A stretch of 64,000 nucleotides of DNA. Origin: Desulfosarcina sp. BuS5. Lineage in GTDB: Bacteria; Desulfobacterota; Desulfobacteria; Desulfobacterales; BuS5. The translations under genes were made by a program, and so were the position numbers. Location: assembly GCF_028752835.1 (NCBI RefSeq), contig NZ_CP087952.1, positions 601,041-665,040 on the forward strand. The letters are read 5' to 3'. Positions 17,289-46,584 of this stretch are shown here, piece after piece (positions within the stretch are counted from its first letter, which is position 1; each line of letters opens with the position of its first letter). The notes beneath the pieces are model-generated. The model worked only from the letters and a program-made list of their open reading frames with translations, was not told the DNA's origin and ran no database searches.

Positions 17289-19553
17289 GTGCCAAGATAA
17301 ATCCGAATCGTTGGGATAAGACACAAGGTCTTTGAAACTCGATATTGTTACCAAGTGGGTGCTCGGGAAACGGTTTGTTTCCTTCATCTCTGCAGGGCTT
17401 GCTCTGGCATTGATGTTAAGATAGTCCCACCTGACTAAAGACTAACCAGCAGGTCAGTAGCGAAGTCCACAGGTAAACCCGGTAACGGGAGTCTGGAGCT
17501 GGACGGAGCAAGATTGCAGGCTCTGTATTGAGCCCCGAAAAATGTATGGTTGTGGTCATTGTGATAATCCTGCTTGCAGGAAAAAGCCGACGCTTTGGAG
17601 ACAGCGGAAGGCAGCAGTCCTGAATATGCTAAGGCAAGTATTCAGGACACCACCGGGGTCTTAGACCAGGGCATGTACTCAAAGGGGTAGCTCGGGAACT
17701 TGGGAGACCCGGATGTTTCCTTGGGTAAAAAGAACGGTAACAGGAAATCCAGCGCAAGCGAAATCCCGGCGTTGCATAGGAATGTCCCGCCTTGCAACGA
17801 GTCTGCCATTGGCAGAAACACAAACATTAAAAGATGGGCGATACAAGGTATCAGGGGAGGATAGCGAAGAGCGAACGAACCTGAGATAAACATTCGGAAG
17901 TCTTAGCAGATCATAGTACCGATGATTAAGAATTGAACTATCTTGATCGGAAAGGTGGGGAAGTGATGCCCAAGCGACCCACTGCAGGGAAGGTGAAGCA
18001 GGGTATAACGTTTTTTTGGCAGGAATTATGGGAGATACACAGATGTCACAAACCATATCAACAAAAAGCCGAGAAATTGCAAGAACGGTCGCTTGCAATT
18101 CCAGACCGATAGAATGGGGACAACCACCGGTGTTAACAGGTGGGTCATCCCTTATCAAAATCGAGCTGCTTGCTCAAAGTAATCCTGAACTGGTATTTAC
18201 ATCAGTAGTCCATCGGATAGACTTTGATTTACTGAAACAATCCTTTCGTAAAATTCGGAAAAGCAAATCTGCAGGAGTGGACAAGGTTACGGCAAAGGAG
18301 TATGCCGAAAATCTTGATCAAAACCTCTATAATCTGTATGAACGACTGCGGAGAGGACAGTACGTTGCGTCTCCTGTAAAGCGTATCTGGATAGACAAGG
18401 AAGGAGGGAAAAAGCGTCCAATTGGCATACCTGTACTTGAGGATAAAATTGTCCAGAAAGCAGCAGCAGCCATATTGAATGTCATATTTGACAGGAATTT
18501 TTACAATTTTTCCCATGCATTCAGAAAAGGTCGGAGCCAACACATGGCAATCAAAGATTTACGTGAGCAATGCTTGAAGCAGAATATCAGCTGGATAGTA
18601 AGCGCAGATATTACAGGACTATTTGACAATATTAATCACGAGTTACTTAAAGACATGATACGTCGGAGAGTAAGTGACGGCGGAATGATTCGCCTGATAG
18701 GGAAGTGGTTGAATGCAGGCGTAATGGAGGAAGGCAACCTGACGTACTCTGAAACGGGCACTCCACAGGGAGGAGTAATTTCCCCTGTGCTCAGTAATAT
18801 CTTTCTTCATTATGTTTTAGATGACTGGTACGTGAAAGAAGTGATCCCCCGGATGAAAGGGAGATGCTCCATCATACGCTGGGCGGATGATTTCATCCTC
18901 GGGTTCGAGTATGAAAAAGACGCATTGCGTGTCATGGATGTATTACCCAGGCGGTTCGAACAGTTCGAGCTGTCACTTCACCCGGAAAAGACAAAACTGA
19001 TTCGATTTTCCAAACGCATTAGCGGAAAGGGAAACGGGACGTTTGATTTTTAGGGTTTACATTTTACTGGTCAAAATCATTAAAAGGGTACATGGTAATA
19101 AAGAAAAAGACGGCAAGAAAGCGTTCAAGCCGTTTTATGAAGAGAATATGGATATGGTGCAAGGATAACCGTCATAAGCCAATGGCCGAGCAGTATGAGA
19201 TTCTTTGCAGTAAACTGCGAGGTTTTTACCAGTACTTTGGAGTAATAAGTAACTACAAAGTGCTGGAAGTTGTGTTTGAATATACTGAGAAAGCATGGCG
19301 TCGATGGTTAAGCCGAAGAAGTCACAAGGGCGAAGTAATGTTCGAGGACTTGCGCACAACATACCCACTGCCATTACCCAGAATAGTCCATAATATTTGA
19401 TGCCGTAAGGGCTGCAAAGTTATACGCCAAACGGGGTGTCGCCTGTTTGGTTGATAATCCGGTAAAAAGGATTTGAACCGAGGAACCGTATGAGGGAAAT
19501 CTTCACGTACGGGTCTGTAGGGGGGGCGTCGGGTAACCGATGCTCCTACCTGG
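17289..19553 (+). mobile_element. Group II intron with damaged ribozyme and reverse transcriptase
   Basis: The 5' end is GTGCCAAG (17289), a group II intron start, followed by about 730 bases of structured RNA (GTAACGGGAGTC- and GGGGAGGATAGCG-like segments), the encoded reverse transcriptase, and domains V and VI at the 3' end. Domain V is at about 19481-19518 (GAACCGTATGAGGGAAA, then CACGTACGG). Domain VI is a GC-rich hairpin ending near CTCCTAC (19552). In domain V the catalytic triad region reads AAC where AGC is usual, and the IEP is frameshifted, so self-splicing and mobility are doubtful. The exact 3' boundary is uncertain by several bases. Confidence 0.78.
18043..19400 (+). pseudogene. 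ltrA: Group II intron reverse transcriptase/maturase, one-base frameshift
   Basis: The first part (start ATG 18043 with GGGAG 8 bases upstream; stop TAG 19051-19053) carries the RT fingers and palm. Visible motifs are KSAGVDKVT, KKRPIGIPVLEDKIVQKA, GTPQGGVISPVLSNIFLH and a catalytic RWADDFI, with WADD replacing the usual YADD. Just before the stop a run of five T residues stands where six would keep the frame. One extra T restores GFTFYWSKSLKGYMVIKKKT and the maturase (X) domain through TYPLPLPRIVHNI at 19400. No endonuclease domain follows. It is either a real inactivating deletion or a sequencing error in a homopolymer. Confidence 0.85.
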
Positions 19554-19651
19554 AGCTTGACCAATTAATCGTTTTATGTAATTATTTATCATAGAATAGT
19601 AACATTTTATGTAATAATGCAGGGGATAAAAAATATCATAAAGGGTCTGCC

Positions 19652-25444: not shown

Positions 25445-28400
25445 TTAATCACACTTTTCTGCCCAAGAAACGGTCCCGCTTTTTGTTGTTCCTGGATTAT
25501 TTACTTCAATATCAATTATAGCTCCTGTACTTGATTGAATAAAAGCTTTTGAGCCCTTTTCTCTGCCGGTATGGATATTTGGTGTAATTACAAGCCCCTT
25601 GCCAAGGTCTTTCATTCTTATAATTTCATGGTTGCCATCATTGTCTACATCCGTGCCAAGGCCTAAAACAGATTCATAATAAGCGGTTCCGGTCTTGAAG
25701 TATACTCCATAAAGTTTACTGGAGCCTTCGTAGCTGCATGCATCATCATCCGGTTTGTAGGTAGTAAACAAAAGAATGTCGCCCAGCAAAGCAGCCTGAC
25801 CAAAGTTTCTCTCTCCGGTTTCCGGAAAATTTAAAAGCCAGCCATCTTTCGTTACAAATATATCATTGTCGGTGTCTTGCATTGTGGTGCTATTGTCGAA
25901 TACCCTTACTGAGCTGACATCCAAGAGGTCTGGTGGATCTTTATCTGGTGGATCTTTAATGCCGTAATAGGTTTGCTGATCATTTGCGTGCCCACCTGTA
26001 ACGTCGGAAGACCGATTAAAAAATCTTCCGGTTCCGAAAAAGACCCAGCGATTGCCAACTTCATCCTTGCCGACAGAAGGCGCTGCGGTTATAGGTTTGC
26101 CGGCATCAATCAAGATGCTGTCTCCAATCCAGTCAGCACTTGCAATTTTATTATCTATGATGATTCTTCTTAACTTACCTCCCCATCCAATAGCTGAGTC
26201 TCCTGATACCGTGCCAAAATATACCACATCTGCTTTGTAAGCAAGGTTAGGATCTACGTTAGAATCTACGTTAGAATCTACGTTATAATCTACAGATACA
26301 GGATCTGATACAAATGAGTTATCATCCAGTTCTACAAATGGATTGTCTGATGATATGGTTTTATTTTGAACAAGTTCATTCAAATCAACTATATATATTG
26401 CAGCTTTTTGCTGGCTGCTTGCTTCCTGCAAAGATGCTGTATCCGGCCCGTTTGCTCCGCTTCCGATTGGTCCTGAGCCCAAAACAAGATACCAGTCGTT
26501 CTGGTCGTTGTCGGTTTTATCCTTCATACATATTACTGTTGGATAGCATGTTGTAAAACCAAGACCATCAAAAGAAATTTCTCCCAAAAGTTCCGGTTTC
26601 TTTTCAGGATTCGTAATATCCATAATTATAAATGCCGACCTCATCACCGGTTCATCTTGTGGAGTGCCATTATCATCATATTTGTTAGTATTATCTCTAT
26701 CTGTATCGGCCTGGATCTGCCCCCCTCCGAAACGCATCCCGCAAACAAGAACTGTTCCCCAGCCATCAGGATGATCATCGTCAGCAGTAAATATTTTGGC
26801 ATCAAATATTTTTGGTTTTAAATCTACATAAGCCACATGGTAATCGGCATTGTAGTCGCTTTCGGTAAGCCAGTACAGGTGCGGTAAAAGGTTATAGGGA
26901 GCATATGCCCAAAGTTCGGCTCCCAGATCGGGGCCGGTATCATTAAATGTTCCGTCGGACTCGGAATAACCTTTCCAAAACTTATTAATGGGTAACTTAG
27001 TGGATGGATTAATGGATGAATCAAAAAAACCTCCGTTAAAGGCATGAAGCATACCGTCATTAGCGCCTACATAATTAACGTGCCGGCGGTTTTTGTATTT
27101 ACGATAAAATTCCGTATAGCTTGTATCTCCATAAAGCAGATCAAAATCCTCAGCAGGCGCCGCCACTACTGTCGGAGAGGAATAGATAATGTCCCCCAGC
27201 CGCCATGTATCTACTGTACCGTCTTCATTATAGTCTATCTGCCTGCTCCTGAAGGCTGGAATAGACATACTGGCTTCTTCTCCCTGGTCTTGTCCTCTTA
27301 TATAGTTTATGATTCTTTTAGATTGAATATTAATAAATGCTTCTTTGGCTGTAGCATCAGCAGGAAGATAGTCAGGCAAGGTTGCGCCAAAAACAGAAGG
27401 ATAAAGATGAAGATAGGGATATATAGAGCTTTCTGTATCAATAAAATCAATAACTTCACCTGAATCAGGGATTTTATCTTTATTACTGTCTACAAAGGTA
27501 AATATATATCTTTGTTTTGTATTGCTTATATATGTCGACCTTTGTTTGGTAATATCAGCATCCGATATATCGCCAAGCCAGTTGTTTGCTGACCATAAAT
27601 ATTTTATGTCCCCGATTGTTCCCACGCAAAGAGGAATTTTTTCATCATCATACATGCCATTTCCGTTTGTATCTATATATTCTTCACCTTCATCATACAT
27701 GTCATTGCCGTTGGAATCTGTGTATTTTTCTAATTGCTCCAGCCTGCCATTCCCGTCTATATCGGCATGTTTGTAAACATTCGATCCATCAAATTTAATT
27801 ACAAGATCTCCCTCTTCCAACGGATCTGAACAGGTGCCGACTTCTATGGTGCCGTCTTTGTCAGCATCTTTTGCCATGTCAAGTTGTCCGTTTTGATTTG
27901 TGTCTTCACGCATATTACCGTAGGCATCCACAAATAGTGCATGCACATCACCCACCCAGTTTACTGTATTTCCCAGCGGGCCTTTATATTCCGGATAAAA
28001 TAGTGATTGATAGATCGCTCCCTCTCCTGAACGTGTGCTGGAGATAACTGAAGCAGCGGTTCCTGATGCGGCCCGGCGCAGGATGTCGGCAAAAGATTTG
28101 TTAAGCTGTTCTTCCAGCCGCAAGGGATTTGTTACATAAAAATAGGTATCCGGCACACCATCCATATCCTTATCCCATTCTTCCTGTTTATCAGGGATAT
28201 TATTTCCGTCTTCTCCTTCTTCAAACCCGCCCCATTTGGCTGCATACCATAAGGGATTCTTAAGAAGTGTTGCGGCAGTGTCGGTTCCGGGAGTAAAGGT
28301 TCTTGATGTAGTTATTGGAAGAGCTTCATCATCATCCCAGGTTTCTCCCGGTCCCTGGCCTGGAGGTGTATCAAGAAAATAATCAGGATCATTTCCTGAG

Positions 28401-30922
28401 CCCGTATCATAATCCCTTACCTCCAGATAAGCGCCGTCTGCTGTTGTGCCGGAAATAACATAGCCCAAATGTTGAATTATTGAACCGGAGGCATAGGTTG
28501 ATGTCAATGTAATGGTGATTGTATTATCAGCATTGACTGTATATTCATATTCAACAATAGCATCCATGTCGTGGTCTGCCCCTTGCTCAACATCTTCATA
28601 ATTAATTCTGAATTTTCCGTAAGTGGGCGTAATAGTATCCACAAAAAAATCAACAATTGTATTGGTCGGCTGAAATTGCCCTTCAGTTCCATCAATTGAA
28701 TAACCACCCACCGATTTACCAAATGGAACAAGGGTTACAGTCTGCCCCCCGACCGGTATTGTTATCCTTGGCAGGGGTGAAGCCAGGCCGACCGCGTAAG
28801 TTATAACTTTTTGATCTTCCTCAATAGTGTTGATATCCGTTTTTCGCCCATAATAGGCTACGCCGGCGGAATAATAACTTCCCTCCTTTGTAGGTTCTTC
28901 CGGAGCCAGGCCGCGAATGCTGCCAAACCCTGTTACGTTTTTTACTGTGGGTGCGCCATCGTAGTTACTTCCTGATTGTCCGATATAATAATCTCCTGAT
29001 ATATTTTCTTCATTTGAAATGGTGTCTGCCAAATTGCTTACATCCATTCCGGTTAAACCATTAGTAGCAATTCCATTGCCAAAATTAGAATTAACTCCGG
29101 GAAGCTGGTCAGAATCATAGGTTGGATTTATATCGCTTATTACAAGCATAAATGGTTTTGCACAATGTTCGTTTGAAGTATAGGGATCATCCCAGTCAGG
29201 CAAAGGAAGTCCAAGATTAGAATCATCTGTTGTCCCGCTGTATGTAAAATTAGATGTAGGATTTCCTGTTCCTGCAAAATATCTTAATCCCTCATACATC
29301 ATCTCGGCTACCGGGTTTCCCCACATCCGGCATTGGCCCTCTTCAAGAGGATGCGTGGTTATCCAGCCGCAGTTGCAGTTATAGGAATCCCCACCATTAC
29401 TATTATAGGAATATCCAACAATACGAAATTTGTTAATTGTGTTGATTATTCCGTTTGTTCCTGTGAATTGACCGGTGGTGGAATTAATTTCATCTGTAAT
29501 GGTGCCGATTTTTTTTCTTAATACACCTCCGGACGTATTTTTTGCATAAGAGCCTGTCAATAAGCCAAAATACATTCTTTCTGATTCACCGTGTCTCTGG
29601 AGAAGCCCAATCGGTTTTATACAGCCGTCAGGATATATTTTACTGTTAGGTTCCGGCATTGAAGAGTCGCAAACTTTAACTCGGACTATATAATCAGTAA
29701 TAGCCGATCCGCCACTCTGAACATCGTAAACCGTCTGGGTAAGGTCATTAAAAGCACTGCCTGGAACTATTTCCCAATTATTATCTGTGCTGTCTGGACC
29801 AGCCCACCGGAGATAATAATTATCACCACCCGTTCTTTCCTGGTGCCTGAATTCTATTTCATGTGTACCTGCGCCAAGGTCAATAGTGCCATGATAGGTA
29901 TGACAGTTGCATCTGCCATGGCCGTCATACCATCCAGCCACTACTATGCCGTCAATAATAACCTCCACGGCATCATCACCATCCACGGCAAATTCATAAG
30001 CGCCACCTGTGGCTATATTAATATTACCGGAAAAAATAGTAAGATAGTAGTCATCAGACCCAAATGGATTTCCACTTCCATCAATATTGTCTACGGACTG
30101 GCTTCCTTGTAGATGGCTGGGGTTGGCATAAGCAAGTACCAGATTTTCATAGTCATTATGACTGGCAGGATAACTGTTATAATTACCACTGCTTGAAACA
30201 ATTGAATCATCACAAACAGGTCTTTCCTTGGCTACCCATTCCCATATTCTGTGTGGGTTGTTTAGTGCAACCCTGAGCAGAGGACCGCCGTTGTCTGATA
30301 GAGTTGTTGATGCGAAAAGGTGTCTTGTCCCTGGATCAGGCAACTCAAAAGGAGTATAATCCCTGATATCATAGCTGTCATGTTCAATGCTTTCATATTC
30401 CTTGCCCCAGGAATGGGCATCCTGCGGGACATATACCCGCTGCAGGACTGTTTCGGATGTAGTATCCGTAGAGCGATATCCTCCATACAGTACCTTGCGA
30501 AGGCAATCCATTCTGGACATGGTAAGGTAATTGAGAAAATCACCGCTCCAATAATTTCCTGAAGAAGGGCACTTTTTATCATCGGTTGTGCCGACAGGAT
30601 TGAAGCGGCCATTTGTTGAATTATATTCATAGTATTTAAAGCTGTCAAAATATCCATAATAATCGATATCAGGTTTGTATCCCACATCAAGCACCCCATC
30701 GCCGTTTAAATCGGATGCATCATTATAGGCTTCATAGTAAAGTTTGTGATTACGGCCCATAACAAGCATTACCAGGGGAGGAGCTCCTGCGGAAACAAAG
30801 GGGGGCAAAAGAGTGTAATCATCTTTGTTTGTTGCATAGCATGTCTTCGTTATGGCGATTGAGCCAAGAATAGCTAAACTTATTCCCGCTATTATACTTT
30901 TATTTATTATGTTTTTGATCAT
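25445..30922 (-). CDS. pilY1: PilY1-like type IV pilus tip/assembly adhesin
   Basis: The 1825-residue secreted protein has a signal peptide (IIAGISLAILGSIAITK-CYA), an N-terminal region typical of PilY1 (APPLVMLVMGRNHKLYYEAY), an inserted PA14-like carbohydrate-binding domain at about 290-395 (YEFAVDGDDAVEVIIDG, HEIEFRHQERTGG), and a C-terminal seven-bladed propeller (VNYVGANDGMLHAFNGG). Many acidic calcium-type loops are visible (DTNGNGMYDDE, DIDGNGRLEQ, DVDNDGNHE). PilY1 proteins prime pilus assembly and act in adhesion and surface sensing. It is the last gene of a minor-pilin operon. It is longer than the usual 1100-1200 residues. Confidence 0.93.
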   Translation of the reverse strand: MIKNIINKSIIAGISLAILGSIAITKTCYATNKDDYTLLPPFVSAGAPPLVMLVMGRNHKLYYEAYNDASDLNGDGVLDVGYKPDIDYYGYFDSFKYYEYNSTNGRFNPVGTTDDKKCPSSGNYWSGDFLNYLTMSRMDCLRKVLYGGYRSTDTTSETVLQRVYVPQDAHSWGKEYESIEHDSYDIRDYTPFELPDPGTRHLFASTTLSDNGGPLLRVALNNPHRIWEWVAKERPVCDDSIVSSSGNYNSYPASHNDYENLVLAYANPSHLQGSQSVDNIDGSGNPFGSDDYYLTIFSGNINIATGGAYEFAVDGDDAVEVIIDGIVVAGWYDGHGRCNCHTYHGTIDLGAGTHEIEFRHQERTGGDNYYLRWAGPDSTDNNWEIVPGSAFNDLTQTVYDVQSGGSAITDYIVRVKVCDSSMPEPNSKIYPDGCIKPIGLLQRHGESERMYFGLLTGSYAKNTSGGVLRKKIGTITDEINSTTGQFTGTNGIINTINKFRIVGYSYNSNGGDSYNCNCGWITTHPLEEGQCRMWGNPVAEMMYEGLRYFAGTGNPTSNFTYSGTTDDSNLGLPLPDWDDPYTSNEHCAKPFMLVISDINPTYDSDQLPGVNSNFGNGIATNGLTGMDVSNLADTISNEENISGDYYIGQSGSNYDGAPTVKNVTGFGSIRGLAPEEPTKEGSYYSAGVAYYGRKTDINTIEEDQKVITYAVGLASPLPRITIPVGGQTVTLVPFGKSVGGYSIDGTEGQFQPTNTIVDFFVDTITPTYGKFRINYEDVEQGADHDMDAIVEYEYTVNADNTITITLTSTYASGSIIQHLGYVISGTTADGAYLEVRDYDTGSGNDPDYFLDTPPGQGPGETWDDDEALPITTSRTFTPGTDTAATLLKNPLWYAAKWGGFEEGEDGNNIPDKQEEWDKDMDGVPDTYFYVTNPLRLEEQLNKSFADILRRAASGTAASVISSTRSGEGAIYQSLFYPEYKGPLGNTVNWVGDVHALFVDAYGNMREDTNQNGQLDMAKDADKDGTIEVGTCSDPLEEGDLVIKFDGSNVYKHADIDGNGRLEQLEKYTDSNGNDMYDEGEEYIDTNGNGMYDDEKIPLCVGTIGDIKYLWSANNWLGDISDADITKQRSTYISNTKQRYIFTFVDSNKDKIPDSGEVIDFIDTESSIYPYLHLYPSVFGATLPDYLPADATAKEAFINIQSKRIINYIRGQDQGEEASMSIPAFRSRQIDYNEDGTVDTWRLGDIIYSSPTVVAAPAEDFDLLYGDTSYTEFYRKYKNRRHVNYVGANDGMLHAFNGGFFDSSINPSTKLPINKFWKGYSESDGTFNDTGPDLGAELWAYAPYNLLPHLYWLTESDYNADYHVAYVDLKPKIFDAKIFTADDDHPDGWGTVLVCGMRFGGGQIQADTDRDNTNKYDDNGTPQDEPVMRSAFIIMDITNPEKKPELLGEISFDGLGFTTCYPTVICMKDKTDNDQNDWYLVLGSGPIGSGANGPDTASLQEASSQQKAAIYIVDLNELVQNKTISSDNPFVELDDNSFVSDPVSVDYNVDSNVDSNVDPNLAYKADVVYFGTVSGDSAIGWGGKLRRIIIDNKIASADWIGDSILIDAGKPITAAPSVGKDEVGNRWVFFGTGRFFNRSSDVTGGHANDQQTYYGIKDPPDKDPPDLLDVSSVRVFDNSTTMQDTDNDIFVTKDGWLLNFPETGERNFGQAALLGDILLFTTYKPDDDACSYEGSSKLYGVYFKTGTAYYESVLGLGTDVDNDGNHEIIRMKDLGKGLVITPNIHTGREKGSKAFIQSSTGAIIDIEVNNPGTTKSGTVSWAEKCD
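26251..26293 (-). repeat. 12-bp tandem repeat in pilY1
   Basis: Three to four units of a 12-mer (GAATCTACGTTA on the plus strand) encode Val-Asp-Ser-Asn repeats in the propeller region. Changes in unit number keep the frame, so the loop could vary in length between strains. Confidence 0.7.
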
Positions 30923-38742: not shown

Positions 38743-39939
38743 ATGGACCGACAATCACCTCTTGAAAAAAGGATAAAAAGACACGTTGCTGCAAGAGAAC
38801 ATCTTTTTTTTGCCGCAACAACTCCCGGGTTTAAAAGTGTCTGCTTTAAGGAGTTATTTAATATTCATGGCTCTATTAAAGAGATAAACATGGTGAATGG
38901 TGGGGTTGAGTTTAAAGGTCGTTTGCAGGATTGTTACAAGGCAAACCTGTTTCTCCGCACCGCCAACAGGATCATCATGCGCATAGGGAAGCTGAAAGCA
39001 ACCAATTTCAGGATACTGGAAAAAAAACTTACAAACTTTCCCTGGGAACTTTTTATCCCATACACAAACGGAAATAATAGTCAGCCTGAAATAAGTGTCA
39101 CTTCGATACACTCCAGGCTGTATCATAAAACAGCGGTTGCGGAATGCTTCAGAAAAGGCATAACAAACAGGTTTAATAATGTGCCTGGCTGTCAAGCCGG
39201 GAACATTGATTATTTACAACAGCATCTTTTTGTCAGAATTCAAGATGATAATGTTATTATATCCCTGGACAGCAGCGGAGAACTTCTCCATAAAAGGGGA
39301 GTTAAGAAATATAAAACCAGGGCGCCGATTCGTGAAACAATAGCATCCGCGGCTTTGATGCTTGCAGGATATGAGGCCGGAAAACCTTTGATTGATCCTT
39401 TGTGTGGTTCCGGAACTTTTTCGATTGAAGGGGCGATGTTGTCGTCAAATATCCCGGCCGGCTGGTTCAGGGAGTTCGCTTTTATGGGGTGGCCATGTTT
39501 TAAAACTGAACAGTGGGCTTATATAAAACGTGAAGCAGAAAAAAAAATTTTGCTTTTAAACGAATTCTGCGTTTTTGCTTCAGATATAGATGACCGCCAT
39601 TGCCGCAGGTTGGATGATACTTTAAAATTACATAAATTATCCTCCATAGTGAGAGTTGAGAATAAAGATTTTTTCAGGTTTTCACCTTCCCACATCTTTA
39701 AGCATGCCGGTACTGTCGCGATAAATCCTCCCTATGGTCTGCGTCTGGGCAATAAAAATGAAAGTATAAAATTGCTTGGAAATATTATCAATAAACTTTT
39801 AACAAGTTATGCGGGATGGAAATATGCGCTTGTTGTTCCAAGGAATTCCGTTACTGATAATGTTTTATCCAACAGTTCATCTCATCAATTTTGCCACGGT
39901 GGTCTCGATATGATTTTACTTACCGGAAAGGTGAGTTAA
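38743..39939 (+). CDS. THUMP-domain RNA methyltransferase (RlmL-like N-terminal type)
   Basis: The 398-residue protein has an N-terminal ferredoxin-like and THUMP region (FFAATTPGFKSVCFKELF, RTANRIIMRIGKLKATNF) and a Rossmann methyltransferase domain with LIDPLCGSGTFSIEGAML and the catalytic INPPYGLRL. This is the shorter form of 23S rRNA m2G2445 methyltransferases. ATG 38743 has no good ribosome site; the preceding bases are A-rich. It ends before a bidirectional terminator. Confidence 0.88.
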   Translation: MDRQSPLEKRIKRHVAAREHLFFAATTPGFKSVCFKELFNIHGSIKEINMVNGGVEFKGRLQDCYKANLFLRTANRIIMRIGKLKATNFRILEKKLTNFPWELFIPYTNGNNSQPEISVTSIHSRLYHKTAVAECFRKGITNRFNNVPGCQAGNIDYLQQHLFVRIQDDNVIISLDSSGELLHKRGVKKYKTRAPIRETIASAALMLAGYEAGKPLIDPLCGSGTFSIEGAMLSSNIPAGWFREFAFMGWPCFKTEQWAYIKREAEKKILLLNEFCVFASDIDDRHCRRLDDTLKLHKLSSIVRVENKDFFRFSPSHIFKHAGTVAINPPYGLRLGNKNESIKLLGNIINKLLTSYAGWKYALVVPRNSVTDNVLSNSSSHQFCHGGLDMILLTGKVS

Positions 39940-39975
39940 GGAATCCGGAGAAAATGATAATTGAGAGCGGCCACA

Positions 39976-40014
39976 AAAAAAGGGCTGCTTTTTCTACAAA
40001 AAGCAGCCCTTTCA
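39976..40014. terminator. Bidirectional intrinsic terminator
   Basis: AAAGGGCTGCTTTTT and AAAAAGCAGCCCTTT form a strong hairpin with A and T runs on each side, so it can end the methyltransferase transcript and the tRNA-Gln transcript, which converge on it. Confidence 0.88.
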
Positions 40015-40035
40015 TATTTTTATCGGCAATTTTAT

Positions 40036-40109
40036 TGGCTGGGAGACCAGGATTCGAACCTGGGTTGACGGAGTCAGAGTCCGTAGTCCTGCCGCTGGAC
40101 GATCTCCCA
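40036..40109 (-). tRNA. tRNA-Gln (anticodon CUG)
   Basis: Read on the minus strand, the acceptor arms are TGGGAGA (40109-40103) and TCTCCCA (40046-40040). The anticodon stem ACGGA/TCCGT encloses CTCTGAC with anticodon CTG, and the T-loop GTTCGAATC is canonical. CCA is encoded (40038-40036). Confidence 0.95.
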
Positions 40110-40197
40110 AAATTTTTTCTGTTTATTATATAAAAAAGGTTTAGAGTCAAGATAAAAAACTTCGACGTATGCAATTATAAACTAAAAATTACGCATT

Positions 40198-41754
40198 ATG
40201 AGTAATCTGTTTTTTCAAAAAGCCGATCCGGCACATTTGGATTTCCAGTATTTAGAGGATCTTTCCACAGCATACTGGTATTCTGAAGTTTTGTTTGCAT
40301 CTATAGAACTGAAGCTTTTCATGTTTCTGGATCAAGGGGCCGCAACCATAGAATCTCTTGCTGAAGCTGCCGGGTGCAGAAAAAAAAGGCTGAAGCGTCT
40401 TCTTAACGTCTTGGAAAGTCTCAACCTTGTTTATTATCGGGACGGCAAATTTTGCAACAGCCAGTCTGCGGGAATCTACCTGGTGCCGGGGAAGAGCGGA
40501 TATATGGGTGATTTTTTTTTATATCGCTCTTATATGAAGCCCAGGTGGGAGGCTATTGTTGATCAGGTTGCATTAAAAAGCAGGCAGGCGCCCCATGTTG
40601 CCGCGCAGGATGATAATTATGAAAAAAAGACCTTCAAATATGTCCGGGCAATGGATATCCTTGCAAAGCAGAAAGCCTTGGAAATCATTGAACTGCTGGA
40701 AGAAATCGGGTGGGAGACGCCTATTCTCGACATAGGCGGGGGAGCAGGCGCTGTGAGCCGGGCTGTTATAAAAACCAGGCAACGCGGAGAAGCTTTGCTC
40801 TTTGAGATCCCTGAAGTCATCCAGGCCGCAAAAAGGATATATCCTGATGAATCTTCGTGGGAGCGAATCAAAACAATTGAGGGGGACTTCCGTAATTACA
40901 GGTTTGATTCCGGACAAAAATTCGGAATGATACTTATGAATAATTTTTTACATGCTTATGACAGTGATGACGCTCATGATCTGCTGTTAAAGGCGGTTGA
41001 TCTGCTGCTGCCGGATGGCCTGCTTGTTATACACGATTATTTTCCGGACAGGGCGGGGCGTTCTCCTCATAAAGGCGTGCTGTATGACCTTAGCATGATG
41101 CTGAATACATATAACGGAGCTTGCCATGATGCTTCCATGATATCGGAATGGCTGAAAAAATCCGGGATAAGCCGTGTAGCTATTCAGGATCTTGGCACGG
41201 ATTCTTCGGTTGTTATTGCAAGCCGAAAGGATATCGGCTTTAATTTGGAGACCGGCTATGAAGAGTGGATATATAAAGCTGTAAGAGCCGGTTTTACTAA
41301 AGCTGTTCTTCTTCCTGTTGAAAAAATAGTAACAGGGGACTGGGTTAGAAAAAAATGCCGGTTCGGCTGCGCTCTTTACGGAAAAAACCTTCAGTGCCCG
41401 CCATATGGCATGAAGAGTAAAGAAACACAGGATTTACTGAAATCATACAAATGCTCGCTTCTTCTTGAAGGCTCTCCCCCTGGCAGGGAGTTTCATAAAA
41501 GGCTGCTCCTGATGGAAAAAAAAGCTTTTCTGGCCGGATACCATAAGGCGCTTGTATTCGGAGCAGGACATTGCCCGGTTTGCAGCAAATGCCCTGAAGA
41601 CGGTATCTGCAAATATCCTGAAAAAGCTCGTCCTTCCATGGAAGGATCAGGGATAGATGTTTATTCAACAGCAAAAAATGCCGGTATAAGTCTTAAGCCT
41701 GTTGCAAACAAAAACCAGTATGTAAAATATATCGGCCTCTTGCTTTTGGAGTAA
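40198..41754 (+). CDS. SAM methyltransferase fused to DUF2284
   Basis: The 518-residue fusion starts with a winged-helix dimerisation domain (ASIELKLFMFLDQG, GCRKKRLKRLLNVLE) and a Rossmann methyltransferase (ILDIGGGAGAVSRAV, ~177-190). It is related to O-methyltransferases of pigment and cofactor pathways. From about residue 350 it carries DUF2284, with cysteines in KKCRFGCALYGKNLQCPPYG (C387 onward) and CPVCSKCPEDGICKYP, a probable metal or iron-sulfur site. It is followed after three bases by a radical SAM gene. The fusion and the cassette suggest modification of a cofactor or natural product, of unknown structure. Confidence 0.75.
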   Translation: MSNLFFQKADPAHLDFQYLEDLSTAYWYSEVLFASIELKLFMFLDQGAATIESLAEAAGCRKKRLKRLLNVLESLNLVYYRDGKFCNSQSAGIYLVPGKSGYMGDFFLYRSYMKPRWEAIVDQVALKSRQAPHVAAQDDNYEKKTFKYVRAMDILAKQKALEIIELLEEIGWETPILDIGGGAGAVSRAVIKTRQRGEALLFEIPEVIQAAKRIYPDESSWERIKTIEGDFRNYRFDSGQKFGMILMNNFLHAYDSDDAHDLLLKAVDLLLPDGLLVIHDYFPDRAGRSPHKGVLYDLSMMLNTYNGACHDASMISEWLKKSGISRVAIQDLGTDSSVVIASRKDIGFNLETGYEEWIYKAVRAGFTKAVLLPVEKIVTGDWVRKKCRFGCALYGKNLQCPPYGMKSKETQDLLKSYKCSLLLEGSPPGREFHKRLLLMEKKAFLAGYHKALVFGAGHCPVCSKCPEDGICKYPEKARPSMEGSGIDVYSTAKNAGISLKPVANKNQYVKYIGLLLLE

Positions 41755-41757
41755 AAA

Positions 41758-43083
41758 ATGCGTATTTTACTTGTTCAAGTCCCGAGTTCTCATATGGGTG
41801 CCGGGGAAAAAGTATATCCCCTTGGTCTTTCCAGACTTTCGTCCTTAATTCCGAAAGAGCATGCAAAATGGGCTCTTGATATGAATATCTATCCTGATCC
41901 ATGGCCGGAATTAAAAGAGGTTCTTTTAAATGTCCAGCCGGATATTGTCTCTCTTTCATTCAGAAACATAGATCCCTTGGCCGGTCATCAGGCATCTTAT
42001 CTCTCTTCTTTAAAAACCTCTGCAAAAATGGTACATAGGCTTGTGTCTAAAGCCTGGTTGTTGGCCGGCGGGCCGGCTTTTTCATTATTCGGGAAGAGAT
42101 TAATGGATGCTATCCCTGAAATAGATCTGGGAATAGTAGGTGAAGGTGAATCTTCATTTCCGAAATTAATATCAGATCCGTCTAATTTTAAAAAAATTCC
42201 GGGAGTGATTTGGAGGGACCGGAACCTTATTGGATATAATCCTGCCGGTCCGCTTATATCCATGGATTGCCTGCCGGATATGGATACCAAAGCTTTTGAT
42301 ATTAATTATTATCTAAAAGCGAATCAATATGTGGCGGCCATAGGCATCGAGGGTAAAAGAGGTTGTGATTTACAATGCGGCTATTGTGTTTATCCATCTC
42401 TCGGGGGAAAAAAGACCCGGCTGAGATCTCCAAAAAAAATCGTAGATGAAATGGAGTATTTAAACAAAGAATATTCAGCAAATCTATTCCATTTTACCGA
42501 TCCCGTTGTAAACCGGCCTTCCGACCATTTTGAAGCGATCTGTATGGAGATAATTAACAGGAAACTGCAAGTCGGATGGACAGGCTTTTTTCGGGAAGAG
42601 AATATCACAGAAAGGATAGTTGATCTTGCAGTTGAAGCCGGACTGACGGCCATATATTTTTCGGGTGATGCTTTGACGGATCATGGCCTGAAAATATTAA
42701 ACAAGAAGATGACCAAGGATGATATTATCAGGGCTGCAAAAATAACGGCAAAAAATGGTATCCTGACCATGTGCCATTTTTTAATAAATCTTCCTGGAGA
42801 AACTGATGAGCATGCCGATGAGTCGGTCGAAATGCTTGACAGGCTCCTCGATATCCACGGGCATATGGCGAACCTGGGAGCGGTGATTTTTAATAATGTA
42901 AGATTATATCCCGGAGCCCCTTTAACCGAAAAGATTATCAGAAGCGGAATGCTTGCTGCTGATATTGACCTGCTATATCCTGTTTATTTTAATCCTCCGG
43001 AAAGGTCGTATCTGCTTCATGAACTGGAAGCATTGTGCCACTCGGCCGGTATTTTTTCCAGACTTGAAATAAAGGGATCATAG
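41758..43083 (+). CDS. B12-binding-type radical SAM protein, first of two
   Basis: The 441-residue protein has an N-terminal B12-binding-like domain (MRILLVQVPSS, PLGLSRLSSLI, DIVSLSFRN) without an obvious D-x-H-x2-G, so base-on cobalamin binding is uncertain. The radical SAM motif is C203-x3-C207-x2-C210 (CDLQCGYC). The C-terminal half has LPGETDEHADESVEML, typical of BchE/methylthiotransferase-like members. It begins three bases behind the methyltransferase-DUF2284 gene. Confidence 0.8.
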   Translation: MRILLVQVPSSHMGAGEKVYPLGLSRLSSLIPKEHAKWALDMNIYPDPWPELKEVLLNVQPDIVSLSFRNIDPLAGHQASYLSSLKTSAKMVHRLVSKAWLLAGGPAFSLFGKRLMDAIPEIDLGIVGEGESSFPKLISDPSNFKKIPGVIWRDRNLIGYNPAGPLISMDCLPDMDTKAFDINYYLKANQYVAAIGIEGKRGCDLQCGYCVYPSLGGKKTRLRSPKKIVDEMEYLNKEYSANLFHFTDPVVNRPSDHFEAICMEIINRKLQVGWTGFFREENITERIVDLAVEAGLTAIYFSGDALTDHGLKILNKKMTKDDIIRAAKITAKNGILTMCHFLINLPGETDEHADESVEMLDRLLDIHGHMANLGAVIFNNVRLYPGAPLTEKIIRSGMLAADIDLLYPVYFNPPERSYLLHELEALCHSAGIFSRLEIKGS

Positions 43084-43142
43084 CGGATTATTGTGGTGAT
43101 TCTATTTATTGAGGACATACTAATTAAACTTATGTCATCAGG

Positions 43143-43190
43143 TATTAGCGTTTAGCAGCTAACAGCTAAAGGCTAAATGCTAATAGCTGT
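43143..43190. repeat. TTAGC-rich imperfect hairpin
   Basis: The stretch ggtattagcgtttagc pairs with gctaaatgctaatagc, enclosing agctaacagctaaag. The same words occur in the 221-bp insert at 16043-16263. A short hairpin repeat (43188-43227) follows, also present at 13077. Confidence 0.5.
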
Positions 43191-43242
43191 TCATCATGGA
43201 TTACCAGACTAATCCGTGATAAACCAAATAAAGTAATAAACT

Positions 43243-44724
43243 ATGACAATACTTATTCTTGAACATCCCAGAACATTATCGGAAACCAGATTTAATGATA
43301 TCGCCAACGCCCCTCTCTGGTCATGTCTGCTGGCAGGTTATGTTGCATCAGGTTTGATAAAAGCAGGCCATGGTGTCCAAATTACTGATGCTCAGAAAAG
43401 TGGATGGTGTTTCCTGAAGACAAAAGAGGAAATTATCAGGCTTTCACCGGACCTGCTTTTTATTAATGCCGTCTATTCCTGGGAACATACGGATCAATTT
43501 TTTAATTTTCTCGCGGATCTGCGCGCTGAAGGTTATGTGGGGCATATAAATCTGTTCGGTTTTTTCCCTACATTGGCATGGAATGTAATCCTGATGCATT
43601 CACAAGCTGTTGATTCCATAGCTGCCGGAGAACCTGAAAATATCCTGATAGAGCTGGCTGACCGGCTGCGGTACGGAAAATCATGGAAGGATATTTCCGG
43701 TCTGGCATATAGAACAGGCAAGGGGATTATATTTAACGGCCCCAGGAGGCCTGAAAAAAATCCGGATTCATTTCCCTTTCCTGCAAGAAATGTTGAGCCC
43801 GGTGAGACTATCAGCATTCTGGCCAGCAGGGGATGTTATAATTATTGCAGTTTCTGCCCGGTGCCCTCATTTTATAACAACGGCCCTTTGTGGAGGGGGC
43901 GGACCCCTGAAAACATCATTAATGAAATCTATTCTTTGTATGATAAGGGGAGCAGGGATTTTTATTTTATCGATCCCAATTTTATAGGTCCGGGAACAAA
44001 GGGCAGGCAGCGGGTTTTTGAACTTGCGGAACATATCGGGAAATTGGGTATCACTTATGGAATTGAGACCCGGCCGAATGATTTTGATAGCTCGATTATG
44101 ATTTGCATGGTGTCATCAGGATTAAACAGCCTCCTAATGGGTATAGAAAGCGGTTCCGCCGATATTTTAGATGGCCTGGGCAAGCATAGTTCAAGGGAAA
44201 TTTCCGAAAATGCTATAGAACTTTGTCGTGCTTCAGGACTGGAACCTGAAGTGGGATTTCTTATGTTTGTACCGGATAGCACGATTGAAGATATTGAAAG
44301 GAATTTTGTATTTTTGAAGAGCAACATTCTTCTGGATAGACTTGACAGAACCTTAAACCTTTTATCCCATTATCAGATTGTATTAATGGGGACCCCGGGG
44401 TATCAATTTTTTGAAAATAAAGGGCGGCTTGTAAAACAAGGGGCTATCGGTTTTGAGGGTAATATAATTTACCGCAGCAAAAGGGTTGAATGGTTGAGAG
44501 ATGTTATTATAGATATATGCCGATATACCCTTAAAGGAATATCGAAAAAAACATCACCTGTTTACTGGGGCAGGCATAATGAAACGAAAAAACGTGAACT
44601 TAATGATTTTATTGTGGATCTATTTGGAGAAATGCTTAAGGATGCTAAAAATTTAAAAAGTCTGCCTCCTATTCCAAACGTGACATCCGATCTGAAAAAA
44701 GAGATTAAAGTTATGCTTGTATAG
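43243..44724 (+). CDS. B12-binding-type radical SAM protein, second
   Basis: The 493-residue protein starts with a domain resembling B12-binding domains (MTILILEHPRTLSETRF, INAVYSWEHTDQF, GFFPTLAWNVILMHSQAVDS) and has the motif C198-x3-C202-x2-C205 (CYNYCSFC) with downstream GRTPENIINEI and NPNF-like FIDPNFIGPG. The SPASM/TIM-barrel tail is ordinary. It differs from the preceding radical SAM protein and is not a duplicate. Start ATG 43243 has no strong ribosome site; a weak A/G-rich stretch lies upstream. The two enzymes probably act on one pathway with the fused methyltransferase. Confidence 0.8.
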   Translation: MTILILEHPRTLSETRFNDIANAPLWSCLLAGYVASGLIKAGHGVQITDAQKSGWCFLKTKEEIIRLSPDLLFINAVYSWEHTDQFFNFLADLRAEGYVGHINLFGFFPTLAWNVILMHSQAVDSIAAGEPENILIELADRLRYGKSWKDISGLAYRTGKGIIFNGPRRPEKNPDSFPFPARNVEPGETISILASRGCYNYCSFCPVPSFYNNGPLWRGRTPENIINEIYSLYDKGSRDFYFIDPNFIGPGTKGRQRVFELAEHIGKLGITYGIETRPNDFDSSIMICMVSSGLNSLLMGIESGSADILDGLGKHSSREISENAIELCRASGLEPEVGFLMFVPDSTIEDIERNFVFLKSNILLDRLDRTLNLLSHYQIVLMGTPGYQFFENKGRLVKQGAIGFEGNIIYRSKRVEWLRDVIIDICRYTLKGISKKTSPVYWGRHNETKKRELNDFIVDLFGEMLKDAKNLKSLPPIPNVTSDLKKEIKVMLV

Positions 44725-44744
44725 AATACCTGTATAAAATAATT

Positions 44745-44905
44745 GTAACCGTTCACGGTTTACGGTTGAAAATAGAACGGTAACGCCGGCAACACTGGTT
44801 ATGTGGGAATCAATGGTAACACCACAATTTCAACAACAACTCAACCATGGGAACGTAAACTCTGACAAAAATGTCAGCCGTGAACCGGCAATCGTGAACG
44901 GTTAC
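44745..44905. repeat. Miniature element with GTAACCGTTCAC ends, copy 3
   Basis: It runs from GTAACCGTTCAC (44745) to GTGAACGGTTAC (44894-44905), 161 bases long, with an internal copy of the TTCACGGTTTACGGTTGAA edge. It is the downstream flank of the radical SAM cassette. Confidence 0.7.
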
Positions 44906-44938
44906 GAATAAATAAATAAAGGACCGCTTCAAAAAAAA

Positions 44939-44966
44939 AGCAGCGCTTAATTGCTTAAGCGCTGCT
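44939..44966 (-). terminator. Minus-strand intrinsic terminator
   Basis: AGCAGCGCTTAA and TTAAGCGCTGCT form a perfect 12-bp stem with a TTGC loop, preceded on the plus strand by nine A residues, which give a T run on the minus strand. It would stop transcripts coming from the IS element at 45277 or from a lost gene. Confidence 0.8.
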
Positions 44967-45267
44967 CTCACCTTGAAGGGTACAAGGAATTTAAGGGAAG
45001 TGAAAATTAAAAAGCCCGATTTCAAATAATACCGTTATTGCTCTCCGATACACATCTTGTGTTAATTATACTTTTTTTTTAAAGTTTGAAGATGACCGGT
45101 GAACAAGATGCACGCGCATCATTGAAGCATTTACCGTGCTTTATTTTTTAAATAAGCAAAAAGCATGCAAAGATTTTTAAAAAAAATAAAAATATTTAAA
45201 AATATAAAATTTCAAATAGTTGTGACCGATTAACTGTTGTCCAAAAAAAATATTTTTTATAATATCC

Positions 45268-45276
45268 AAAAATATG
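45268..45276. other. Left 9-bp target duplication of the IS element
   Basis: AAAAATATG stands at 45268-45276 and again at 46585-46593 directly outside the ends of the IS4-type element. Confidence 0.9.
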
Positions 45277-46584
45277 CAGTAGTGTCCGGTTAAGTTTTTG
45301 CATATAGCATTTGCTCTTTGATAATCAGATTATTAGACCATACGTTTTTTTCGTCAGTACGTAATTCGTTCTGGATGGTATTTCTAAGCTGACGAATCCT
45401 CTTTATTGATACAGGTTCATTAAACTGTTCATGGCAGTATATGGCCATAAGCAGGTAGGTTATTAACCCCGCAAGGATTTGAACCATCAGGCCATATCTA
45501 CTGTGAGCAATCAAGTGGTACACTTTTAAATGTTTCTTCCACCATTTGAAAAAAGTTTCGATATCCCATCTAAGCTTATAAACGGTTGCAACCTGCTCGG
45601 CTGTAAGATCATAACGATCAGTTGCCACAAAATATTTGACACCGGCAATTTTATAACCAACCAGTCGAACCGGCTTTCTGGTCTGGTTTACCCCAGGAGT
45701 GCCAAGAAGAACCACAGCATCATAAAAAATATAGCTGTCGGGATCAACAGGCTGCTCTTTGATAATAGTTCTTGTTGTTTTCGCTTTGATGCGGCAAACA
45801 AAATGTTTTTTTTCATCCTGAAGAAGATCAAAATCCTTATGTGATTGATACCCCCGATCCATGATTCCTGTTTGGCCTTTTGTAAGGATAGACCTGACAA
45901 AGGGGCGTTCAGCGCCATTTCCATTTGTCAGATGAATTTTTATAGGAATCTTGCGATTGACATCAAAGCCGAAATGGCCTTTTGCTTTTTTAGCGCCTTT
46001 TCTGTAATCAGCCCAGTACATGGACAGAACTGCATCAATTAAAGATCCATCAATGGAAACGAGTTCACCGAGATCTGAATAATTTGATGGTAAAGCATTT
46101 TGTGCCTGGCTGCAAAGAGCTTGAAAAACATATTCAAGCTGTTCAAGCCCTCGAGAATTGATAATTTCGGAAAAACTGCTACGACTGATCCCTCCATCTG
46201 GAGCGACACATTCTTTGGCAAAATCGTCTTCTTTAAGGTGTTGAATAAGATCACGAGCTGATTCATGTTCTTGTAGATGGAAAAATATCAGTGCGTGAAG
46301 CTGATCTTCAAAAGTCATTTTCAATGGCCTGTGACCTCGGGATTTAAGCTGTGGCGTGTCAGGAAAAATCTTTTGCAAAGGTTTGAGAAATCGAGCATGA
46401 GATTGGGGATTAAAATTCTTTTTTGGGATATTGAATATGTCCATTTTTGTCTTAACTCCTTGTTATAATTATATTTTATAACAAAACGATAAAAAATTTT
46501 TATTTGGTTTGTCAAGTAAAAAATGAACATTTTTCTAATTTTTTTATCCCATATAACATGCAAAAACCTAACCGGACACTACTG
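45277..46584. mobile_element. Complete IS4-type insertion sequence, 1308 bp
   Basis: The ends CAGTAGTGTCCGGTTA (45277) and TAACCGGACACTACTG (ending 46584) are inverted repeats continuing to GTTTTTGCA/TGCAAAAAC with one change. A 9-bp target duplication AAAAATATG flanks it, so it arrived by simple transposition and is likely recent. Confidence 0.93.
45290..46444 (-). CDS. IS4-family transposase
   Basis: The 384-residue protein is complete. The DDE residues are seen in LVSIDGSLIDAV, GIMDRGYQSHKDF and the Y-x2-R-W-x2-E signature (YKLRWDIETFFKWW), the YREK-like block of the IS4 group. An HTH-like N-terminal region precedes. It reads on the minus strand and fills the element. No internal stop or frameshift is seen. 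Confidence 0.93.
   Translation of the reverse strand: MDIFNIPKKNFNPQSHARFLKPLQKIFPDTPQLKSRGHRPLKMTFEDQLHALIFFHLQEHESARDLIQHLKEDDFAKECVAPDGGISRSSFSEIINSRGLEQLEYVFQALCSQAQNALPSNYSDLGELVSIDGSLIDAVLSMYWADYRKGAKKAKGHFGFDVNRKIPIKIHLTNGNGAERPFVRSILTKGQTGIMDRGYQSHKDFDLLQDEKKHFVCRIKAKTTRTIIKEQPVDPDSYIFYDAVVLLGTPGVNQTRKPVRLVGYKIAGVKYFVATDRYDLTAEQVATVYKLRWDIETFFKWWKKHLKVYHLIAHSRYGLMVQILAGLITYLLMAIYCHEQFNEPVSIKRIRQLRNTIQNELRTDEKNVWSNNLIIKEQMLYAKT

Follow-up and report, generated by a model that had tools for sequence, protein, structure and literature searches.

What is made by an O-methyltransferase that carries DUF2284, a cysteine-rich domain without known function, when two radical S-adenosylmethionine (SAM) enzymes are encoded directly behind it? 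This question is raised by three plus-strand open reading frames (ORFs), ORF1, ORF2 and ORF3, in a 64,000-nucleotide stretch (here called the window) of the Desulfosarcina sp. BuS5 genome. Their intergenic gaps measure 3 and 159 bases, and the ORF coordinates and Pfam domains bear out a preliminary description of this DNA insofar as it recognized a methyltransferase-DUF2284 fusion nearly contiguous with two radical SAM genes. That description took the product to be unknown and knew of no pathway with this set; a methyltransferase with two B12-type radical SAM enzymes, however, makes up the bzaCDE set known from anaerobic benzimidazole (bza) synthesis, and the genes very probably make the lower-ligand base of a corrinoid. 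We propose that ORF1-3 constitute the late part of the bza pathway for the cobamide lower ligand, with BzaF and CobT encoded elsewhere in the genome and 5,6-dimethylbenzimidazole (DMB) as the end product, and we give this proposal as a whole a probability of roughly 0.86. The assignment to the pathway is strongly supported, and DMB is its likely product. The features concerned are as follows.

40198..41754, + strand: ORF1, BzaC-type O-methyltransferase fused to DUF2284, 518 residues (Pfam, NCBIfam; orthologues adjoin bzaF, cobT and BzaD-like genes)
40243..40476, + strand: O-methyltransferase dimerisation domain, ORF1 residues 16-93 (Pfam PF08100)
40603..41166, + strand: Methyltransf_2 catalytic domain, ORF1 residues 136-323 (Pfam PF00891, E 1.3e-18)
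41311..41748, + strand: DUF2284 domain, ORF1 residues 372-517 (Pfam PF10050, E 2e-35, 122.4 bits; alignments)
41758..43083, + strand: ORF2, BzaD-like cobalamin-type radical SAM enzyme, 441 residues (TIGR04385 BzaD, 407.5 bits, cut-off 450)
42358..42837, + strand: ORF2 radical SAM core, CxxxCxxC at residues 203, 207 and 210 (Pfam PF04055; motif invariant in 10 aligned rows)
43243..44724, + strand: ORF3, cobalamin-type radical SAM enzyme in the BzaE position, 493 residues (Pfam; motif alignment; structure model matches; L112 homologue fused to CbiR)
43822..44301, + strand: ORF3 radical SAM core, CxxxCxxC at residues 198, 202 and 205 (Pfam PF04055; motif invariant in 11 aligned rows)

Gene order and pathway assignment

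The evidence for the pathway from the present analysis consists of domain content, operon linkage, a riboswitch, a CbiR fusion and co-distribution. ORF2 finds its best match in the NCBIfam model of BzaD (E 8.4e-122, residues 2-431), with the next family at 243.7 bits, and Pfam reports Radical_SAM (E 1.4e-19) together with a B12-binding match below threshold (22 bits, cut-off 32.1). When named genomes were scanned with ORF2, 12 loci emerged (L numbers below; G numbers are genomes), all from metagenome-assembled genomes of proteobacterial or Desulfobacterota type, whose labels include Desulfobacterales, Desulfobacteraceae, Desulfobacula, Desulfomonilaceae, Syntrophobacteraceae, three times "Deltaproteobacteria" and once "Proteobacteria". 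A fused ORF1 precedes ORF2 in all nine loci with a complete upstream side (L103, L104, L106-L109, L111, L112 and L110, the last read as L044 on the same contig), and ORF3 follows in eight of these, the contig of L110 ending there. As many relatives repeat the same gene order, the arrangement is not due to chance. BzaF and CobT stand directly upstream of the fusion, ORF2 and ORF3 in L104, L107 and L109; BzaF-fusion-ORF2-ORF3 operons are found in L103 and L112, with CobT downstream in L112, and a CbiK cobalt chelatase lies close by in L119. ORF1 can therefore be regarded as BzaC in the sense of a Methyltransf_2-type enzyme within a bza operon, the operon linkage being that of its relatives; a BzaC-named NCBIfam model was absent from the matches, even for three operon-linked BzaC copies that are bare of DUF2284.

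In the window genome a second ThiC-family gene, bzaF, adjoins cobT (G000 C1:1285023-1287382, L089) about 640 kilobases from ORF1-3, and the CobT of this genome scores 429.3 bits with TIGR03160 (cut-off 319.3), so that the CobT expected of a bza pathway is present. In a ThiC-family tree, in which identical rows were entered once, this second copy belongs to a 22-row clade (Shimodaira-Hasegawa-like approximate likelihood ratio support, SH-aLRT, 100; branch 0.73) that contains all 16 rows labelled as bza-linked and none of the true-ThiC group; the linked copy of G518 (L273) and the pair of G422 (L272) were labelled "other". Its location beside CobT and its place within the bza-linked clade identify the copy as BzaF. 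Among 30 genomes, BzaF-type genes were assigned by tree clade in 15 and by score or linkage only in 11 more, including G422 and G082. A cobalamin riboswitch is found 5' of bzaF in eight of eight loci scanned, L089 of the window genome included, two of the ten loci (L104 and L123) having been omitted for size. Among eight further loci, it lies ahead of the fusion gene, or ahead of a symporter that precedes this gene, in L171, L170 and L167, and was not found in L106, L108, L189, L045 and L046. The symporter, a conserved SSF-type sodium:solute protein, adjoins the fused bza genes in L106, L111, L165-L170 and L172 (and L185), stands behind the riboswitch in L167 and L170, and is a candidate transporter for the lower ligand or a cobamide precursor.

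The reaction of each enzyme is assigned here by analogy, and the order of the steps follows what passages of reviews describe for other organisms. BzaF would make 5-hydroxybenzimidazole, which the methyltransferase part of ORF1 (BzaC) would O-methylate; the BzaD-like ORF2 would add a ring methyl group, ORF3 in the BzaE position would swap the methoxy group for methyl to give DMB, and CobT would activate DMB en route to cobalamin.

Several observations weigh against this assignment. ORF2 remains under the curated cut-off of the BzaD model, and we call it BzaD-like rather than a strict BzaD for this reason. ORF3 is placed as BzaE by gene position, not by sequence comparison with Firmicute BzaE, and scores only 24.4 bits with the BzaD model, though a passage of PMC6461909 describes a similarity between BzaD and BzaE. 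The BzaF proteins also exceed the cut-offs of ThiC models, their assignment being derived from the tree and from gene linkage; both ThiC paralogues of G422 branch next to the 22-row clade and not within it, and four of the 30 genomes (G723, G672, G734 and G491, the last with a fragment) have no BzaF-type copy. Moreover, the window contains no cobalamin riboswitch at the gathering score, nor was one found within 39500-45300 at E up to 1.

Scores below the BzaD cut-off are the rule for proteins of this type (10 of 11 scored): nine of ten further ORF2 orthologues reach 389-430 bits, while the tenth, from L189 (G555), attains 635.7 bits and has a fused homologue of ORF1 before it and a homologue of ORF3 behind it. 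That a BzaD passing the cut-off occurs in this gene order makes the pathway assignment firmer. This divergent copy of the gene order (L189:8434-12832) may bridge the present variant and the classical bza genes.

Distribution of the gene set

Profile searches with the fusion, in which no more than three candidates were scored for each genome and which hence give lower bounds, located the BzaC family in at least 7 of 395 genomes across the phylum and at least 44 of 389 across the order, with a union of 49 genomes. Both domains share one ORF in 44 of the 49 (with broken frames in G491 and G696, and a break near the start in G559); the remaining five are G249, G422, G594, G552 and G597, the last at a contig end. 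The fusion, ORF2 and ORF3 occur within the fetched stretch in 33 of the 49 genomes, ten of which also carry BzaF and/or CobT there. That the genes might occur separately in relatives, with the fusion an isolated case, had been considered in the preliminary description and is at odds with these counts. With the family mostly accompanied by ORF2 and ORF3, and with most ORF2-type proteins under the BzaD cut-off, anaerobic synthesis of true vitamin B12 may be commoner among the bacteria of this group than strict models flag.

The smaller gene sets are informative as well. In six genomes only the fusion and ORF2 were seen in the stretch; G002 (same genus as the window genome), G003, G733 and G639 carry ORF3 on other contigs, whereas in G474 the contig ends and ORF3 was not found elsewhere in the genome. 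The sixth, G013, combines the fusion with an ORF2 truncated to some 249 positions and lacks ORF3. The fusion is accompanied by ORF3 without ORF2 (E 1e-60) in G265 and G082, and by neither gene in G046, G727 (contig end) and G672 (85% complete). G249, G422, G594 and G552, the four genomes in which BzaC is clearly unfused, contain no ORF2 (E 1e-60) and no ORF3 (E 1e-50) anywhere; their bare BzaC genes adjoin BzaF (G594, G552), BzaF and CobT (G249), or two ThiC paralogues and CobT (G422). Since such sets match the shorter pathways of other bacteria described in a part of PMC8123684, they support the bza assignment. These natural gene subsets may also help in dissecting the final DMB-forming step.

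In the methyltransferase tree the unfused copies stand at no fewer than three places among the fused ones. A sign test of fusion against ORF3 on this tree, with L177 lacking an ORF3 state (contig end), found that three of three independent switches coincide in most pairings, a number of pairs that, being below six, cannot reach 0.05; G013 and G046, with a fusion and no ORF3, are counter-examples to such coupling. Seventeen fused DUF2284 rows group on a single branch (94/90; 98% of 200 bootstrap trees). When 12 further rows are added, including the distant L119-L121 and L189, two changes are required on the free tree and a single clade is not rejected (approximately unbiased test, p-AU 0.512), so the trees neither establish nor reject one origin for the fusion. 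From the methyltransferase trees L103, L106-L109 and L111 were omitted as duplicates and L180, L183 and L184 for too few aligned positions; L187 (contig end) was omitted from both trees and L121 and L181 also from the second, and L190 (broken frames) was labelled as fused. In the rooted version the outgroup does not fall on one side, and we claim no direction of change.

ORF3 and the end product

Pfam detects Radical_SAM in ORF3 (E 3.6e-15) and gives no match to a B12-binding domain. The best PDB matches of its AlphaFold model (mean predicted local distance difference test, pLDDT, 80.5) are cobalamin radical SAM enzymes, with OxsB in first place (Foldseek 3.7e-17; VIA Z 28.2 over 453-455 residues) and TsrM and MgmA also among the folds matched. 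The CxxxCxxC motif together with the cobalamin-domain fold of the model supports ORF3 as a predicted cobalamin-type radical SAM enzyme, and with BzaD as the best match of ORF2 the description of both enzymes as B12-type stands. In one relative (L112:7336-9702) the ORF3 homologue is fused to CbiR, a cobamide-remodelling phosphodiesterase (246.7 bits, cut-off 105). This protein joins ligand synthesis and cobamide remodelling in one chain. A plasmid search with ORF3 returned 98 records, none spanning 80% of the query, the best reaching roughly 34% identity over 66%.

No named family is close to ORF3: its best NCBIfam match is HpnJ (90.4 bits, cut-off 577.6), and BchE is also among the best models. 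Together with the 243.7 bits of ORF2 for TIGR04072 ("lipid biosynthesis"), these matches might suggest an unrelated lipid or tetrapyrrole modification of the ladderane, hopanoid or BchE kind. All such scores are far under their cut-offs, though, and the linkage to BzaF, CobT, CbiR and a cobalamin riboswitch, besides the BzaD that passes its cut-off within an equivalent gene order, renders this explanation highly improbable; it was rejected on gene linkage. The preliminary description had suggested that the genes make or modify a tetrapyrrole, a corrinoid or an unusual lipid, of which the corrinoid came close, the product very probably being a lower-ligand base, while the other two are not supported.

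The isolated position of ORF3 also bears on which base is made. If ORF3 did not carry out the BzaE reaction, the same pathway would end at 5-methoxy-6-methylbenzimidazole or another base, and the two genomes with fusion and ORF3 but without ORF2 would fit an ORF3 that needs no preceding ring methylation, giving for instance 5-methylbenzimidazole, which a passage of PMC8123684 lists among the natural lower ligands. Of these genomes, G265 is only 85% complete, and the ORF3 of G082 is only 32% identical. The location of ORF3 after BzaC-BzaD agrees with that of bzaE in the published operons, and in 33 of 49 genomes it shares one stretch with ORF2 and the fusion, which likewise speaks for the BzaE reaction. 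We thus consider another end product quite unlikely and retain DMB. The loci L119 and L121, with fusion and ORF3 and no ORF2, mark a possible route to a singly methylated benzimidazole.

The DUF2284 domain

The DUF2284 match of ORF1 is well above the gathering cut-off of 25 bits, and seven cysteine residues (C-x3-4-C, CPP, C..C..C, C) are invariant across 47 aligned rows, some of them near-duplicates. An arsenite methyltransferase of the ArsM-DUF2284 type was considered, as the selenoprotein model NF041536 matches ORF1 with 87.4 bits. This match spans only residues 351-518, in the DUF2284 half, and lies far under the cut-off of 575, while the other half of ORF1 is Methyltransf_2; an arsenic function is hardly conceivable, and the candidate was rejected.

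For the structure model of the domain (pLDDT 75), VIA ranks cobalamin-binding folds first, with Z 8.0 for NpRdhA (114 residues, 3.4 A), 7.9 for MMACHC and 7.1 for QueG, values of 7-8 being such as can arise by chance. Foldseek gave no significant match with the same model (best E 0.13), and profile searches of PDB sequences revealed no DUF2284 relative. An hhalign comparison with a small, badly mixed QueG set, a weak test, gave a probability of 0.2%, no better than controls. Two peptide patterns taken from the fused domain retrieved no relative from viral contigs. In the passages of the literature where DUF2284 is mentioned the bza pathway is not concerned, and no paper in the literature searched combines DUF2284, RACo and corrinoid.

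Free-standing DUF2284 genes offer a further line of evidence. Corrinoid-type neighbours were detected in nine of 21 standalone loci with at least one neighbour scanned (L280-L283, L285-L289), a share that is not an unbiased rate, since 15 of the 21 loci were hand-chosen, two of them for corrinoid neighbours already visible. RACo-type reductive activators occur in six of the nine and MtaA/CmuA- or URO-D-type proteins in five, this whole group being the only corrinoid sign in L283 and L288; L289 has a corrinoid protein, and L281 has CobA with MeaB. No corrinoid neighbour was found in the other 12 loci, for which the scan frequently covered no more than one or two neighbours. Immediately 5' of the fused bza genes of G733 and G756 lies a set comprising MtrH, a URO-D/MtaA-like protein, a corrinoid protein, RACo, DUF6951, a small ORF and DUF2284:

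L175:10703-17214: MtrH-to-DUF2284 gene set (Pfam for every member except the small ORF and DUF2284)
L164:2272-8761: MtrH-to-DUF2284 gene set (Pfam for MtrH and RACo, start sequences for other members, alignment for DUF2284)

DUF6951 also precedes DUF2284 in L280 and L285. Through such neighbours, a domain without known function gains a testable link to corrinoid chemistry.

The fused domain may accordingly serve corrinoid or redox needs of ORF2 or ORF3. By our electron count, the exchange of methoxy for methyl needs two more electrons than C-H methylation, and the cysteine-rich DUF2284 could meet this need or reductively activate the cobalamin of the enzymes. A more specific proposal would make DUF2284 a corrinoid-handling, probably iron-sulphur redox domain which, fused to BzaC, donates electrons to the cobalamin of ORF3, or activates it by reduction, for the aryl methoxy-to-methyl exchange, such that the fusion and ORF3 without ORF2 would make 5-methylbenzimidazole; we put this forward as speculation that is unlikely to hold as stated. 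DUF2284 could instead be a passive or metal-storing appendage of BzaC without a role in the chemistry of ORF2 and ORF3, as the fusion without ORF2 and ORF3 in G046, the truncated ORF2 and missing ORF3 of G013, and the 12 standalone loci with no detected corrinoid neighbour would allow. However, all four clear unfused BzaC genomes, from at least three separate places in the tree, lack both ORF2 and ORF3, and the truncated ORF2 of G013 suggests a recent loss, so that we regard a passive domain as rather unlikely.

Other features of the window

An apparent insertion sequence lies just 3' of ORF3 (45277-46584), with a DDE transposase ORF at 45290-46444 on the minus strand and 27-nucleotide inverted repeats on both sides. 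Rfam matches to group II introns were found at 17421-17668 and 19481-19555, with an ORF of 345 residues (18016-19053) between them, and a very long minus-strand ORF of 1825 residues occupies 25445-30922.

Comparison with known systems

According to passages in PMC8123684, bzaF-cobT operons lead to 5-hydroxybenzimidazole, bzaAB-cobT-bzaC to 5-methoxybenzimidazole and bzaAB-cobT-bzaCDE to DMB, and these passages also underlie the comparisons with bza operons below. Geobacter sulfurreducens has BzaF beside CobT (5-hydroxybenzimidazole), as has the window genome, but no bzaCDE is named for it there. The order bzaA-bzaB-cobT-bzaC of Moorella thermoacetica (5-methoxybenzimidazole) is the same as that of L123 in G422; the BzaC of L123 carries no DUF2284 and shares 34% identity with the methyltransferase half of ORF1, and the locus has no ORF2 and no ORF3. 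The standalone DUF2284 proteins of RACo-type corrinoid methyltransferase sets share the domain and its seven cysteines with ORF1, whereas they are not fused to a methyltransferase and form a separate clade.

The closest counterpart is bzaABCDE of Eubacterium limosum and Acetobacterium woodii, which serves anaerobic DMB synthesis and shares with the present system an O-methyltransferase followed by BzaD and BzaE, along with CobT and ThiC-like genes. Here, one BzaF replaces BzaA and BzaB, ORF2 falls below the BzaD cut-off, ORF3 is likened to BzaE by position, and the fusion of the methyltransferase to DUF2284 may be a further difference. The bza pathway itself was thus already known, whereas the fusion variant is new and broadly distributed.

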